Shown here piece after piece: positions 8,904 to 16,752 of a stretch of DNA of 64,000 nucleotides. The stretch is taken from contig NC_020134.1 in assembly GCF_000331995.1 (NCBI RefSeq), positions 2,888,627 to 2,952,626 of the forward strand, given 5' to 3'. The DNA comes from Thermoclostridium stercorarium subsp. stercorarium DSM 8532 (GTDB taxonomy: Bacteria; Bacillota; Clostridia; DSM-8532). Numbering within the stretch: the first letter of the stretch is position 1; the number at the start of each line of letters is the position of its first letter. A program made the translations under genes and the position numbers. Below the pieces are notes generated by a model. That model was given only the letters and a program-made list of their open reading frames with translations, did not search any database and was not told where the DNA came from.

Positions 8904-8998
8904 TGGCGGAGAAGGAGGGATTCGAACCCTCGCGCCGTTTATTCAACGACCTACACCCTTAGCAGGGGCGCCTCTTCGGCCAACTTGAGTACTTCTCC
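8904..8998 (-). tRNA. tRNA-Ser (GCU anticodon)
   Basis: Read on the minus strand, GGAGAAG at the 5' end pairs with CTTCTCC before a G discriminator and an encoded CCA. The anticodon loop contains GCT, the T-arm is GAGGGTTCGAATCCCTC, and a long variable arm marks it as a class II serine tRNA. Confidence 0.95.
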
Positions 8999-9011
8999 GT
9001 ATAATAAAAAC

Positions 9012-9102
9012 TGGCGGAGAGACTGGGATTCGAACCCAGGGTGGGCGCAAGCCCACGCCGGTTTTCAAGACCGGTGCCTTAAACCAGCTCGACCATCTCT
9101 CC
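9012..9102 (-). tRNA. tRNA-Ser (UGA anticodon)
   Basis: The acceptor stem GGAGAGA pairs with TCTCTCC, followed by G and an encoded CCA. The anticodon loop is CTTGAAA (anticodon TGA). The T-arm is CTGGGTTCGAATCCCAG and the variable arm is long, as in serine tRNAs. It is co-transcribed with the next tRNA, 13 bp away. Confidence 0.95.
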
Positions 9103-9340: not shown

Positions 9341-9523
9341 CTATGCCTGACGGTTCGGGGCGGAATTCCTGTTAGCCATTTCTATGGCTTTCTTGACCAT
9401 ATTACCGCAGTCTCTTGATGTCACGGCTCCCCAACCGTCATTTTTGACTATATCATACACACCAAGTTCTTTCGCTATCTCTTCCTTAAGTTGCTCTGAC
9501 ATAACGCCGTTTCGTCTGGCCAT
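9341..9523 (-). CDS. Alpha/beta-type small acid-soluble spore protein
   Basis: A 60-residue DNA-binding spore protein that coats and protects DNA in dormant spores. The second half, [20 protein letters not shown], is the conserved DNA-binding signature of the family. The [14 protein letters not shown] segment holds the usual germination-protease region. GAGGAGGG precedes the ATG. It is monocistronic with its own terminator, so forespore-specific (sigma-G) expression is expected, although I could not pick out a convincing promoter. Its presence shows the organism belongs to a spore-forming lineage. Confidence 0.93.
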
Positions 9524-9625
9524 GGGTATCCCTCCTCAATTCAGCAAAAGCCCGTTCAAGCCTTGCTGCGGAACCCCCGGCGTACATTATTATTTTATCC
9601 CGTCTTAATAAATATATAATCTGTA

Positions 9626-10075
9626 TTATTTGGAGGGATTGGTTCCTAATGGTTTGGACGGTTTACTGATTTCGGCCAGTGCCTCGGAAGCTTCCACAGT
9701 TAATTCGGGTTTGCCGGTGGTCGCAATATCCCCAAGGGATAACATGCCAATCAGCTGTTGGTTTTCCACAACCGGTACCCTTCTTACCTGTTTTGAGGCC
9801 ATAATTTTCGTAACCGACTGCACATCATCGTCGGGAGAAACCGTTGCCACCTGCGATGTCATTATTTCGCGCACAGGGGTTGAAAACGGATCCTTTCCTG
9901 ACGCAATATTTCTTACGACAAGATCTCGGTCGGTTACAATGCCCTTAAGACCGCTCTGGTCAACCACGGGTATTGCACCGACATTGTGTTTCTGCATTAA
10001 CTCCGCCACTTCTTTTATTGTAGTATCCGGACTGACCGTAACCACCGATTTTGTCATAACGTCGCGTACTTTCAT
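9626..10075 (-). CDS. CBS-pair domain protein
   Basis: A 149-residue protein made almost entirely of two CBS domains: MTKSVVTVSPDTTIKEVAEL, then VVDQSGLKGIVTDRDLVVR, and a second MTSQVATVSPDDDVQSV with ENQQLIGMLSLGDIA. CBS pairs bind adenine nucleotides and act as regulatory modules; stand-alone proteins like this have mostly unknown targets. GAGGAG lies before ATG at 10075. Its promoter region would be the DnaA-box-rich interval upstream, so its expression could respond to DnaA; that is inference only. Confidence 0.9.
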   Translation of the reverse strand: MKVRDVMTKSVVTVSPDTTIKEVAELMQKHNVGAIPVVDQSGLKGIVTDRDLVVRNIASGKDPFSTPVREIMTSQVATVSPDDDVQSVTKIMASKQVRRVPVVENQQLIGMLSLGDIATTGKPELTVEASEALAEISKPSKPLGTNPSK

Positions 10076-10185
10076 TTCTCCTCAGCTCCTTATTTGTTTT
10101 TCCTATTTTTAACCTTCCACGTTTCACAGCCCGTTATTCCATTTGTGCTTAAATTTATTTTCTGCTGAAAGCATGCAGCCAGTCC

Positions 10186-10502
10186 TGTGGATATTTTGCA
10201 AAAAACAATCGGGACAATTCACAGTTTTACGACAGATATTCACATATATCCACAATGAATCAACACAACCTTTTGATAATTCTGTGGATAAATTAATGTT
10301 TTTATAATGTTCATCATATTTTTTAACAGGTTTTAAGCCTTATACACGCAAAAATTACACAGCATATCCACAGGGTTGTGGATAACTTTTTGCATGAAAC
10401 AAACCCTTGAAACGCTTTTGTTTCAAGGGTTTCAGCGCATTAACCTTTTTCATGTTGTAAATTTATCCACTTTTCTGTGGATATTTTTACGTTTTGTCCA
10501 CA
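10186..10502. other. Cluster of eight DnaA boxes
   Basis: Within 317 bp there are two perfect TTATCCACA boxes (10283-10291 and 10377-10385, both minus) and six with one mismatch: 10186-10194 (-), 10246-10254 (+), 10364-10372 (+), 10463-10471 (+), 10476-10484 (-), 10494-10502 (+). A rough expectation for sites with at most one mismatch in this length is below 0.1. AT-rich runs at 10292-10325 lie between boxes. The interval is otherwise non-coding between nadC and the CBS gene. It resembles an origin sub-region or a DnaA-titrating cluster like datA or the Bacillus DBC sites. Confidence 0.8.
10401..10432. repeat. Perfect 13-bp inverted repeat inside the DnaA-box cluster
   Basis: AAACCCTTGAAAC (10401-10413) is matched by its reverse complement at 10420-10432 with a six-base loop. 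No U-tract follows on either strand, so it is not a typical terminator. Confidence 0.7.
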
Positions 10503-10562
10503 GGATGTCAGTATGACCTCACTTCATGTCCTGTATTGACAAATCCCAACATTTTCCGCGAG

Positions 10563-11393
10563 TCACTCAAATTTCATGCTGATATCCATTGCCTTCACCG
10601 AATGGGTTATTGCACCCACTGAAATTATATCAACACCGGTGGCAGCCACGCTTTCTATATTGTCGAGCGTAACATTTCCCGATGCCTCTGTCACTGCTTT
10701 TCCGGCTATCAGTTCCACAGCCTGCTTCATAATCTCCGGAGGCATATTGTCAAGCATGATAATATCGGCACCGATGTCCAAGGCTTCTTTTACCTGCTCC
10801 AGAGTCTCGGTTTCAACTTCTATTTTGACGGTGTGTGGAATTTGCTTTCTCACCGCCTCAACAGCCTGTCTGATCCCTCCTGCCGCCTTAATGTGGTTAT
10901 CTTTTATCAACACGCCGTCGGAAAGCGAAAAACGGTGATTGGTTCCTCCTCCGACCCTAACGGCATATTTTTCAAGCAGCCTGAGCCCCGGTGTGGTCTT
11001 CCGTGTATCCACAACCTTCGCCTTATAACCCCTGAGTTTTTCCACATACTTGCGTGTTTCGGTAGCAATGCCGCTAAGCCTCTGCAAAATGTTCAAAGCC
11101 GTCCTCTCGGCTTTTAAAAGTGCCCTGCTGTTTCCTTCCACCACCAAAATCCTGTCCCCTTTCCTGACAAAATCGCCGTCTTTGACAAGGGGCTCCAAAT
11201 TCACATCGGGATCAAGCATTCTGAAAGCTTCGATACATATTTCAAGACCGGCTATTACGCCGTCCTGCTTGGCAATAAGGAAGGCTTTCGAAATACTGTC
11301 ACAGGGAACGGTATTGTCGGTTGTTATGTCCCCCATCGGCATATCTTCGCGAAAAGCTCTTTCAAGTATGTCCCTTATTACCCATTTCTCCAT
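10563..11393 (-). CDS. nadC: Nicotinate-nucleotide pyrophosphorylase (quinolinate phosphoribosyltransferase)
   Basis: A 276-residue enzyme that converts quinolinate and PRPP to nicotinate mononucleotide, the last step of de novo NAD ring synthesis. Family motifs are in order: MPMGDITTDNTVP near residue 18, RTALNILQRLSGIAT, VVDTRKTTPGLRLLEKYAVR, GGGTNHRFSLSDGVLIKDNH, and the C-terminal EASGNVTLDNI and ISVGAITHSVKAMDIS. Length is normal. It follows nadB in the same direction with a 75-bp gap. GGAAGGGAG precedes the ATG. Confidence 0.97.
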   Translation of the reverse strand: MEKWVIRDILERAFREDMPMGDITTDNTVPCDSISKAFLIAKQDGVIAGLEICIEAFRMLDPDVNLEPLVKDGDFVRKGDRILVVEGNSRALLKAERTALNILQRLSGIATETRKYVEKLRGYKAKVVDTRKTTPGLRLLEKYAVRVGGGTNHRFSLSDGVLIKDNHIKAAGGIRQAVEAVRKQIPHTVKIEVETETLEQVKEALDIGADIIMLDNMPPEIMKQAVELIAGKAVTEASGNVTLDNIESVAATGVDIISVGAITHSVKAMDISMKFE

Positions 11394-11468
11394 ATCCCGC
11401 TCTCCTTCCGCATATTACGTTTAATGCCGGTTGCAAATACGGCACCCGATTCTGCAAATTCACGCTGT

Positions 11469-13067
11469 CTACAGTACCGTATTTTTTCTGAAATTTACAT
11501 CATCGGTCTGAGGATAGTCAGACCTGTAATGGGCGCCGCGACTTTCCCTGCGCATCAAAGCCGCTCTTATCACCAGTTCCGACAATGTGAGCATGTTAAC
11601 TAATTCCCAGTGTTCAACCGTTGTATAAGCTTTCCCTTCGATTTCAGCCTTCATTTCCAGAACCTGGTTCAAAGCTTCCTGCAAATTTTCACCGTTTCGG
11701 ATTATCCCAACCTTTTCGGTCATAAGGGTGCGAAGCCTTGACTTCAACGCACCGGCGTTTTTAACAGGCTCGTTTGATTTTCTTATATGGCATAAATTGT
11801 CCGGAATCCTCGCTTCCTTCAATGTCCGGTTCAATATCTGGCCTGTCAGTTCAGTGGCGATCCTTCTTCCGAAAACAAGACCTTCCAGGAGTGAATTGCT
11901 TGCCAGGCGGTTGGCACCGTGAATTCCGTTGCATGCCGCTTCACCGCAGGCATAAAAACCTTCTATGCCGGTTCTTCCCCATTCATCGGTTTTTATGCCG
12001 CCCATGGAGTAATGGGCCGCCGGCGCAACGGGTATCCTGTCCTTTGTTATATCAATACCGTACCGCAGGCAGGTTTTATAAATAGTAGGGAAACGATTTT
12101 TCACATATTCCGGATCCTTATGGGAAATATCCAGATACACATAAGTCGAACCCGTTTTCTGCAGCTCCTGAAAAATTGCCCTGGATACAACGTCCCTCGG
12201 AGCCAGCTCGGCCATCGGGTGATAAGCAGGCATGAAACGCTCGCCCCGAATATTTAAAAGTATCGCCCCTTCTCCTCTTACCGCTTCGGTAATAAGAAAG
12301 GACCTGTCTTCGGGATGATAAAGCACGGTAGGATGGAACTGGACAAATTCGGGATTCATAACCCTGCAGCCTGCGCGATATGCCAAAGCCACTCCGTCGC
12401 CGGTCGTTACCTGCGGGTTTGTTGTGTAATTATAAAGCTGACCGTAACCGCCTGCTGCGCATACAACCGCACCGGCCAGAAACAATTTGAAACTTTTGCT
12501 GTCCTCTTCATAGGCGATAAGCCCGATACACTTCTTTGCCTCCGTAACAATGTCTATTGCGAAGGTTCTTTCGAATATTCTTACATTATCATGTTTCAGC
12601 AGGATTTTAATCAAAGTATCACATACTTCCTTGCCGGTGGAATCTCCGGTATGGACAATCCGGTTTTTGCTGTGTGCTCCTTCCCTGGATAATAACAGCT
12701 GCTGATCTTCTCCCCTGTCAAAGTTAACGCCGTAACGGCACAGTATTTCTATATTTTCGGCAGCTTCATTTACAAGAATCCGAACCGTTTCTTCGTCGCA
12801 CAGTCCTGCCCCCGCATAGACCGTATCCCTAAAATGGCATTCAGGGGAATCATCCCTGCCCAGTGGAACTGCAATGCCACCCTGTGCAAGTACCGAATTG
12901 CTTATCTCAACCGTTTCTTTTGTTACAACTGCCACCTTAATACTGCTATCCATCTGAAGCGCGGTATAAACCCCCGCAATACCGCTTCCGATTACGACTA
13001 CATCATACTGCTCTTTCGGTATGTCATTAATATCAAAGTTTACCAAATACCTGTCCACAAAGGTCAT
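11469..13067 (-). CDS. nadB: L-aspartate oxidase
   Basis: A 532-residue FAD enzyme that oxidises L-aspartate to iminoaspartate for NAD synthesis. The Rossmann FAD site is VVIGSGIAGVYTALQM near residue 25. Other conserved parts are NSVLAQGGIAVPLG, FVQFHPTVLYHPEDRSFLIT, EAVRGEGAIL, MAELAPRDVVSRAIF, HYSMGGIKTDEWGRT and GANRLASNSLLEGLVFGRR. It forms an operon with nadC. The usual third gene, nadA (quinolinate synthase), is not in this window, so it must be elsewhere or quinolinate synthesis is incomplete. Upstream, 13068-13316 shows nothing I can call. Confidence 0.96.
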   Translation of the reverse strand: MTFVDRYLVNFDINDIPKEQYDVVVIGSGIAGVYTALQMDSSIKVAVVTKETVEISNSVLAQGGIAVPLGRDDSPECHFRDTVYAGAGLCDEETVRILVNEAAENIEILCRYGVNFDRGEDQQLLLSREGAHSKNRIVHTGDSTGKEVCDTLIKILLKHDNVRIFERTFAIDIVTEAKKCIGLIAYEEDSKSFKLFLAGAVVCAAGGYGQLYNYTTNPQVTTGDGVALAYRAGCRVMNPEFVQFHPTVLYHPEDRSFLITEAVRGEGAILLNIRGERFMPAYHPMAELAPRDVVSRAIFQELQKTGSTYVYLDISHKDPEYVKNRFPTIYKTCLRYGIDITKDRIPVAPAAHYSMGGIKTDEWGRTGIEGFYACGEAACNGIHGANRLASNSLLEGLVFGRRIATELTGQILNRTLKEARIPDNLCHIRKSNEPVKNAGALKSRLRTLMTEKVGIIRNGENLQEALNQVLEMKAEIEGKAYTTVEHWELVNMLTLSELVIRAALMRRESRGAHYRSDYPQTDDVNFRKNTVL

Positions 13068-15804: not shown

Positions 15805-16752
15805 ATGCGGATTGGAATTCCGAAAGGCTTATTATACTGCAAATACCATCCTTTTTTTGAAACCTTTTTTCACTGCCTTGGCGCGGAAATCGTAACTTCT
15901 GAAAACACAAACAAAAAAATTCTGGATTTGGGTGTTGGAACCTGTGTGGACGAAGCATGCCTGCCGGTCAAAATCTACCACGGGCACGTGGCATCAATAA
16001 AGGACATGTGTGATCTTTTGGTAATTCCGCGTATTATGCAGGTTTGCAAAAACGAATACATCTGTCCGAAGTTCTGCGGTCTTCCAGAAATGATTTTTCA
16101 CAGCATTTCCGGAATGCCCGAAGTCACTTACCTACCGTTATACATGCACGACAGAAAATCCCTCTACAAATGGTGCGCAGCATACGGATCCATAATCACC
16201 CGGAACAGGAGTAAAATCAGGCATGCATTCGAACATGCAGTGAACGCTCAGAGGAATTTTAAAACCGGAATTTCTGAGCTGAAAAAAATCAACGTCATGC
16301 TTGCAGGCCATCCCTATGTCATAAACGACGCTTTTTTGAACATGGATATTGTAAACAAGCTCAAAGCAAAGGGAATCGGAATTATCACCGAGGAATTTGC
16401 TCCGGCCTCGGTTTCTGAAGCACAGGTTATGAAGCTGATCAAAAAACCTTTCTGGACATTCCAGCGAAGTTTATTCGGAGCATCTGCGGCTTTTCATCAC
16501 CAACGGACAATACACGGGATTATATACCTGTCTTCCTTTGGCTGCGGCATCGATTCGATAGTGATAGATCTTATACGGTTTCACATAGGGGAATTTCCGA
16601 TGCTTGTTATTAAACTCGACGAGCATACGGGGGAAGCAGGGGTTGAAACAAGGCTTGAAGCTTTCATAGACATGCTGGAAAGGAGAGTAGATAATGAAAA
16701 TAACCTTCCCGCATATGGGCAATGTTTATATAGCGGTGAAAATTCTGTTTGA
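15805..16752 (+). CDS. DUF2229-type acyl-CoA dehydratase activase-related protein, first copy
   Basis: A 315-residue soluble protein. MRIGIPKGLLYCKYHPFFET is the typical start of the DUF2229 family, which occurs fused to or beside 2-hydroxyacyl-CoA dehydratase activators. Cysteines cluster in GTCVDEACLPVK and CKNEYICPKFCG and could bind an iron-sulfur centre. The end, HTGEAGVETRLEAFIDMLER, recurs in the next gene, showing the two are related. The ribosome binding site is weak (GAAAGTG). It is first of three overlapping genes, overlapping the second by 59 bp. Molecular role is not established. Confidence 0.82.
   Translation: MRIGIPKGLLYCKYHPFFETFFHCLGAEIVTSENTNKKILDLGVGTCVDEACLPVKIYHGHVASIKDMCDLLVIPRIMQVCKNEYICPKFCGLPEMIFHSISGMPEVTYLPLYMHDRKSLYKWCAAYGSIITRNRSKIRHAFEHAVNAQRNFKTGISELKKINVMLAGHPYVINDAFLNMDIVNKLKAKGIGIITEEFAPASVSEAQVMKLIKKPFWTFQRSLFGASAAFHHQRTIHGIIYLSSFGCGIDSIVIDLIRFHIGEFPMLVIKLDEHTGEAGVETRLEAFIDMLERRVDNENNLPAYGQCLYSGENSV

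Follow-up and report, generated by a model that had tools for sequence, protein, structure and literature searches.

What is a dense cluster of DnaA boxes doing in non-coding DNA between nadC and a CBS-domain protein gene of Thermoclostridium stercorarium subsp. stercorarium DSM 8532? The cluster lies in a 64-kb window, by which we mean the whole stretch of DNA analysed (C1:2,888,627-2,952,626 of the 2,974,379-bp single-contig genome), and a first-pass annotation made from the letters alone had offered three answers: an origin sub-region, a DnaA reservoir or a control site for the CBS gene. Here we describe the cluster and its relatives in other genomes, place it relative to dnaA and weigh the explanations against each other.

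Layout of the box cluster in the window

Eight boxes within one mismatch of the consensus lie in 317 bp, with starts at window positions 10186, 10246, 10283, 10364, 10377, 10463, 10476 and 10494, and two of them (10283 and 10377) are perfect, just as the first-pass annotation had reported. The boxes were recognized by consensus match alone and are predicted DnaA sites. They occupy a non-coding gap of 487 bp (10076-10562) between nadC (quinolinate phosphoribosyltransferase, 10563-11393, Pfam PF01729 and PF02749) and the CBS-domain protein gene (9626-10075, Pfam PF00571 in two stretches), both of which are indeed on the minus strand and thus point in the same direction. The annotation's rough count of fewer than 0.1 expected sites also holds, since the 18.97 sites per 64 kb found in shuffles of the whole window amount to ~0.09 per 317 bp, compared to the eight seen. 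Across the entire window, 37 boxes within one mismatch occur versus 19 expected from shuffles, and when the window was dinucleotide-shuffled 200 times, no cluster exceeded 3 boxes per 317 bp. The site therefore shows one trait of a Bacillus subtilis-type DnaA-box cluster, several boxes clustered outside oriC beyond chance. Two adjacent serine tRNA genes (GCT and TGA, window 8904-9102) are located ~1.1 kb from the cluster.

Most of the boxes can be assigned to three blocks. Block 1 is a divergent pair formed by TTGTCCACA (10494-10502, plus strand) and ATATCCACA (10476-10484, minus strand), 18 bp apart start to start and identified by both consensus match and alignment; a conserved non-box block adjoins the first of these boxes (10503-10525, minus strand), reading GAAGTGAGGTCATACTGACATCC in this genome and GAAGTTAGGTTGTAATGACAACT in the majority consensus of an alignment of 30 sequences (A2). 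An extra box of this genome, TTATCCACT (10463-10471, plus strand), was identified by consensus match. Block 2, also supported by consensus match and alignment, is a convergent pair, in which a perfect box (10377-10385, minus strand; 'box I' in a DARS-like reading) faces ATATCCACA (10364-10372, plus strand; 'box II') at 13 bp start to start. Near the place of a 'box III' lies AATTACACA (10353-10361, plus strand), which was noted from the sequence only and, with 4 mismatches, is not counted as a box. Block 3 consists of a perfect box (10283-10291, minus strand) and ATATCCACA (10246-10254, plus strand), which match the consensus and have similar boxes in relatives of the same genus, while the outermost box, ATATCCACA (10186-10194, minus strand), was identified by consensus match.

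Between blocks 1 and 2 lies the perfect 13-bp inverted repeat that the annotation had pointed out (10401-10413 with 10420-10432, listed as 10401-10432 on the minus strand). Because several relatives carry hairpin-like sequence at this place, as judged by eye, we read the repeat as part of the nadC transcript end; it is probably the stem of that end and not an origin part. A terminator scan did not score the repeat of this genome as a terminator.

Conservation and geometry in other genomes

A check of box conservation in relatives, which the first-pass annotation had proposed, revealed that the element is kept well beyond this genome. A NadC match is present in 34 of 61 genomes, our own among them, and within the own family boxes occur at similar places after nadC in 22 of 23 loci, the exception (L014) having just 79 bp there. 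In 80 named NadC loci taken from a public collection of genomes, the 500 bp after nadC hold at least four boxes in eight (L036, L037, L038, L039, L041, L043, L051 and L053), three in one (L057) and at most two in 71; some of the loci could not show the element owing to short DNA past nadC (L050, 73 bp; L110, 167 bp; L089, 321 bp). Named carriers include Ruminiclostridium cellobioparum (L053) and a Hungateiclostridiaceae MAG (L043), and the element is absent from the Paenibacillus, Brevibacillus and Ruminococcus loci among the 80. The genome of L041 carries two strong copies on two contigs (G792:C34:99000-99164 and G792:C84:4793-4952), representing either a mixed assembly or a real duplication.

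From the 30 copies in A2 we built a sequence-only model (R1) and searched 391 Clostridia-class genomes, of which 77 match at E<=1e-3, the E-values being rough owing to a shortened calibration. Forty of them stand apart at E<=1.4e-7 and span 10 families, with 19 of the 40 in the own family. The 22 of these 40 genomes that lie outside the training alignment are the cleaner evidence, box identity in a set picked by the model being partly circular. The remaining 37 weak matches (E 2.9e-6 to 9.2e-4), some of which may be oriC or other box clusters, were excluded from the counts. In a phylum-wide draw of 398 genomes, searched with the stricter filters that large searches use, a single genome, our own, matched R1 at E<=1e-6. 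The element is restricted to part of Clostridia.

With up to two mismatches allowed per box, the 40 genomes display a rigid geometry. Every one of them has the divergent pair, spaced (start to start) 18 bp in 33 genomes and 17 bp in 7, and in 37 a convergent pair follows 80-99 bp beyond it, with a spacing of 13 or 14 bp in 29 and with 23 bp as the sole spacing in 8; of the three genomes lacking the convergent pair, one has masked bases at that place. The full two-pair arrangement occurred in none of 400 mononucleotide-shuffled loci. In 18 of the 40 genomes, one box in the box II orientation at +13 is joined by a second at +23 or +26; in our own genome no third box lies within 2 mismatches. Similar pair spacings also exist outside the element: of 25 stretches after dnaA (24 relatives plus our own), 12 contain a convergent pair spaced 14-15 bp and 5 one spaced 23 bp, and a divergent 18-bp pair is present in 3.

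The 30-sequence alignment has 20 invariant columns, and the four boxes account for 18 of them. The non-box block directly before the first box contributes one invariant column and about ten more conserved at >=90%, and the copy in our genome is among the more divergent in A2. The idea that the block is the motif of a global regulator was rejected, as the pattern RTTGTAATGACGAC (<=1 mismatch) occurs 25 times across 9 genomes and a reversed control 48 times; four of the 25 are the element itself, and our own element does not match at that stringency.

Position relative to dnaA and competing explanations

dnaA is located at C1:83-1423 and the cluster at about C1:2,898,812-2,899,128, ~75.5 kb apart when the single contig is taken as a closed circle. 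The frames after dnaA are presumably dnaN, recF and gyrB, and those before it mnmG, mnmE, jag, yidC and rnpA. GC skew is negative in 30 of the 32 2-kb bins of the window (all but those at 16001 and 54001), stays negative left of dnaA in all six sampled stretches and the last 20 kb of the contig, and turns positive in the first 12 kb (bar two 1-kb bins) and in five sampled stretches right of dnaA. Thus, the skew switch expected of oriC occurs at dnaA and not at the cluster, which has negative skew on both sides, and the replication fork reaches the cluster from the dnaA side. The annotation had named a skew switch and dnaA far from the site, with no conservation of the boxes in relatives, as grounds for giving up its reading; the distance proved real, whereas the boxes are clearly conserved.

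The distance between element and dnaA could be measured in 10 genomes, where it ranges from 21 to 76 kb: ~75.5 kb in our genome, ~41.5 kb in G302, ~31 kb in G046, ~27 kb in G368, ~24.4 kb in G229 and G385, ~23 kb in G249 and G167, ~21.6 kb in G056 and ~21 kb in G351. Six of these values (own, G302, G249, G167, G229 and G056) treat a single contig as a circle, and in the other four genomes both features lie on one contig; genomes with element and dnaA on separate contigs, or in which dnaA was not found, were excluded. The side of dnaA and the orientation are identical in 10 of 10, a constancy that could partly reflect conserved local gene order.

DnaA-trio runs measure 1-3 in 28 elements and 1-4 in their shuffles, whereas they reach at least 4 in 17 of the 25 stretches after dnaA. 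Hence the element does not carry the DnaA-trio next to a box that is typical of oriC, although this comparison is weaker for our genome, whose own stretch after dnaA has a run of only 2, shorter than most relatives. Likening the conserved non-box block to the DnaA-trio after dnaA was also dropped, because the trio counts gave no support. The dnaA-dnaN gap of our genome (L004 1424-1706) holds only 3 boxes within one mismatch. In the first 1.3 Mb (G000:C1:1-1300000), WTATCCACA boxes number 28 on the minus versus 11 on the plus strand, counted by eye among the matches listed.

How, then, do the explanations compare? A secondary or ancestral replication origin would fit boxes denser than those of the dnaA-dnaN gap, but the skew profile, the ~75 kb to dnaA and the skew switch, and trio runs no higher than chance led us to reject an origin; such a role is extremely improbable, and the annotation's origin sub-region falls with it. 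It is also improbable that the site is one of transcriptional control, where bound DnaA would regulate nadBC or the next (CBS) gene as at sda and other B. subtilis promoters. To be sure, the element precedes a same-strand CBS gene in our genome and in L180, L182 and L183, and several off-origin DnaA-bound regions of B. subtilis lie at promoters, according to sections of PMC4447404. However, the element is INDEPENDENCE from its neighbours: four genomes of genus g7 (G009, G014, G018 and G020) without a NadC match keep it, and in three loci of those four genomes a rhomboid-like frame (by recognition) precedes it. Moreover, the genes downstream vary among loci (CBS, spore-protein-like by recognition, and others), and in 7 of the 15 loci read nadC and the following long frame point towards the element from either side, so that in those loci it contains no promoter for either gene. 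A promoter scan of 9500-11500 found 3 promoters versus 3.9 in shuffles, i.e. no excess. Taken together, these observations also disfavour the annotation's control site for the CBS gene.

Two further explanations do not invoke the control of a gene by DnaA. A structured RNA at the 3' end of nadC, in which opposite boxes double as hairpins, would draw on the ability of opposite boxes to pair and on the terminator-like hairpins that a scan places at 10365 and 10464, not on the nadC strand but on the other one (4 within 9500-11500 versus 2.3 in shuffles). Yet the box pairs covary little as helices (45 of 500 shuffles score as high), 21 of 30 rows break one pair while both boxes stay DnaA-like, the element persists in the genomes without a NadC match, and the Rfam matches all fall well short of their thresholds (RsaJ, 20.8 of 100 bits; lysine riboswitch, 12.7 of 30); low covariation, the broken pair and the Rfam result together make this RNA very unlikely. 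Finally, the fixed oriC-proximal position, the conserved non-box block and the rarity of that block in the nine genomes would suit a site for anchoring, segregation or chromosome folding near oriC, read by DnaA or by another protein on the block. We regard this as unlikely, since the 18 invariant columns within boxes consist of DnaA-box letters and no parS-, Noc- or RacA-type site was recognized by eye.

A putative DnaA-regulatory locus and its known counterparts

The clustered boxes, their fixed geometry and the conserved oriC-proximal position best support the remaining proposal of the first-pass annotation, the DnaA reservoir, when this is read broadly as a DnaA-regulatory locus. Judging from sequence comparison, the site is thus likely to be a conserved DnaA-binding control locus near, yet outside, oriC, which would probably tune the amount of active DnaA free to start chromosome copying. 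As the rigid spacing exceeds the needs of a passive sponge, we infer that on the two box pairs DnaA forms a single, defined nucleoprotein complex. A site close to oriC is duplicated shortly after initiation, a property suited to a timing device: copied soon after oriC fires, the locus would by its doubling capture DnaA or alter the nucleotide state of DnaA, and this would help to time the next initiation. By analogy, a negative role (a sink or inactivation, as for the B. subtilis clusters and datA) appears somewhat more probable than DARS-like reactivation as a positive role. The fixed geometry points beyond passive titration, and five to eight boxes are few if titration were the only role. 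No match above the family cut-off for YabA was found in 12 element-bearing genomes, four of which have weak matches below it.

To our knowledge, a DNA-based DnaA nucleotide switch is not known outside proteobacteria. It is conceivable, if rather doubtful, that the element does for a Gram-positive group what DARS or datA do elsewhere, as a cis-acting, fixed box array where assembled DnaA would exchange or hydrolyse nucleotide, perhaps evolved in one branch of Clostridia and with a protein on the GTTGTAATGACGAC-like block. Passages of a recent review state that B. subtilis lacks datA and DARS, and that it is unknown whether this species possesses any regulators balancing DnaA-ADP and DnaA-ATP (PMC13220808, 2026). 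A DnaA-box cluster at nadC in Clostridia is not described in the searched portions of the open-access literature, and a term search of the main text of a C. thermocellum transcription-factor binding survey (PMC8457756) gave neither DnaA nor nadC. The element offers a concrete site for asking whether Gram-positive bacteria control DnaA through DNA.

Other off-origin box clusters exist in this genome outside the window. One, with six boxes within one mismatch, lies at G000:C1:2584786-2584904 (L156 787-905), near a frame that we take, by recognition, to be a ribosome hibernation factor. Another is located just downstream of tsaD (gcp) at G000:C1:2598294-2598380 (L157 795-880). In relatives, whose tsaD ends were located by tblastn, at least two boxes occur within 700 bp after tsaD in 28 of 28 readable loci (of 30), and 27 of the 28 have two same-strand boxes 12 or 21 bp apart. 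In B. subtilis, one of the strongest DnaA-bound regions lies downstream of gcp and ydiF (rows of PMC4447404 Table 1), and on sequence grounds Bacilli and Clostridia may share a conserved DnaA locus in the tsaD cluster.

Among known systems, the element resembles the off-origin DnaA-box clusters of B. subtilis in having several boxes in intergenic non-origin DNA. These clusters are oriC-proximal according to a cited title (Okumura 2012), and deleting six of them leads to early initiation, as passages of PMC5295017, PMC13220808 and PMC5010248 relate; according to part of PMC5010248, titration of DnaA is the only function demonstrated for them, and their position matters. In contrast to them, the element keeps its spacing rigid in several families and conserves a non-box block, and nadC is not among the rows listed of the top-20 DnaA-bound B. 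subtilis regions (PMC4447404 Table 1). With the bipartite oriC of clostridia it shares DnaA boxes in intergenic DNA, but in C. difficile oriC2 carries a DnaA-trio, according to sections of PMC7561715, whereas the element has no trio above chance and does not lie beside dnaA.

The comparison extends to E. coli. There, at the loci we take to be DARS1 and DARS2, box I lies 14 bp from box II and box II 12 bp from box III, and in what is presumably datA the convergent boxes (L222 1907/1919) are 12 bp apart. Like datA, which controls initiation, the element is a non-coding DnaA-box locus with a convergent pair, but it differs from datA in box geometry. The DARS loci of E. coli are distant from oriC. 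Convergent boxes I and II ~14 bp apart, 14 bp in both DARS1 and DARS2, are matched by the 13 bp of our element and by the 29 of 40 genomes with 13- or 14-bp pairs, a likeness not to be over-read, since the 14-15-bp pairs found after dnaA show the same arrangement and our own genome has no clear third box. The third box in the box II orientation, at +26 (2 mismatches) in E. coli, has possible counterparts in the 18 genomes with a second such box, a point in which our own genome departs from DARS. datA needs IHF, as mentioned in PMC5295017, and parts of PMC8682772 report that DARS boxes I and II, the pair whose convergent layout the element shares, support head-to-head DnaA contacts and ADP release.
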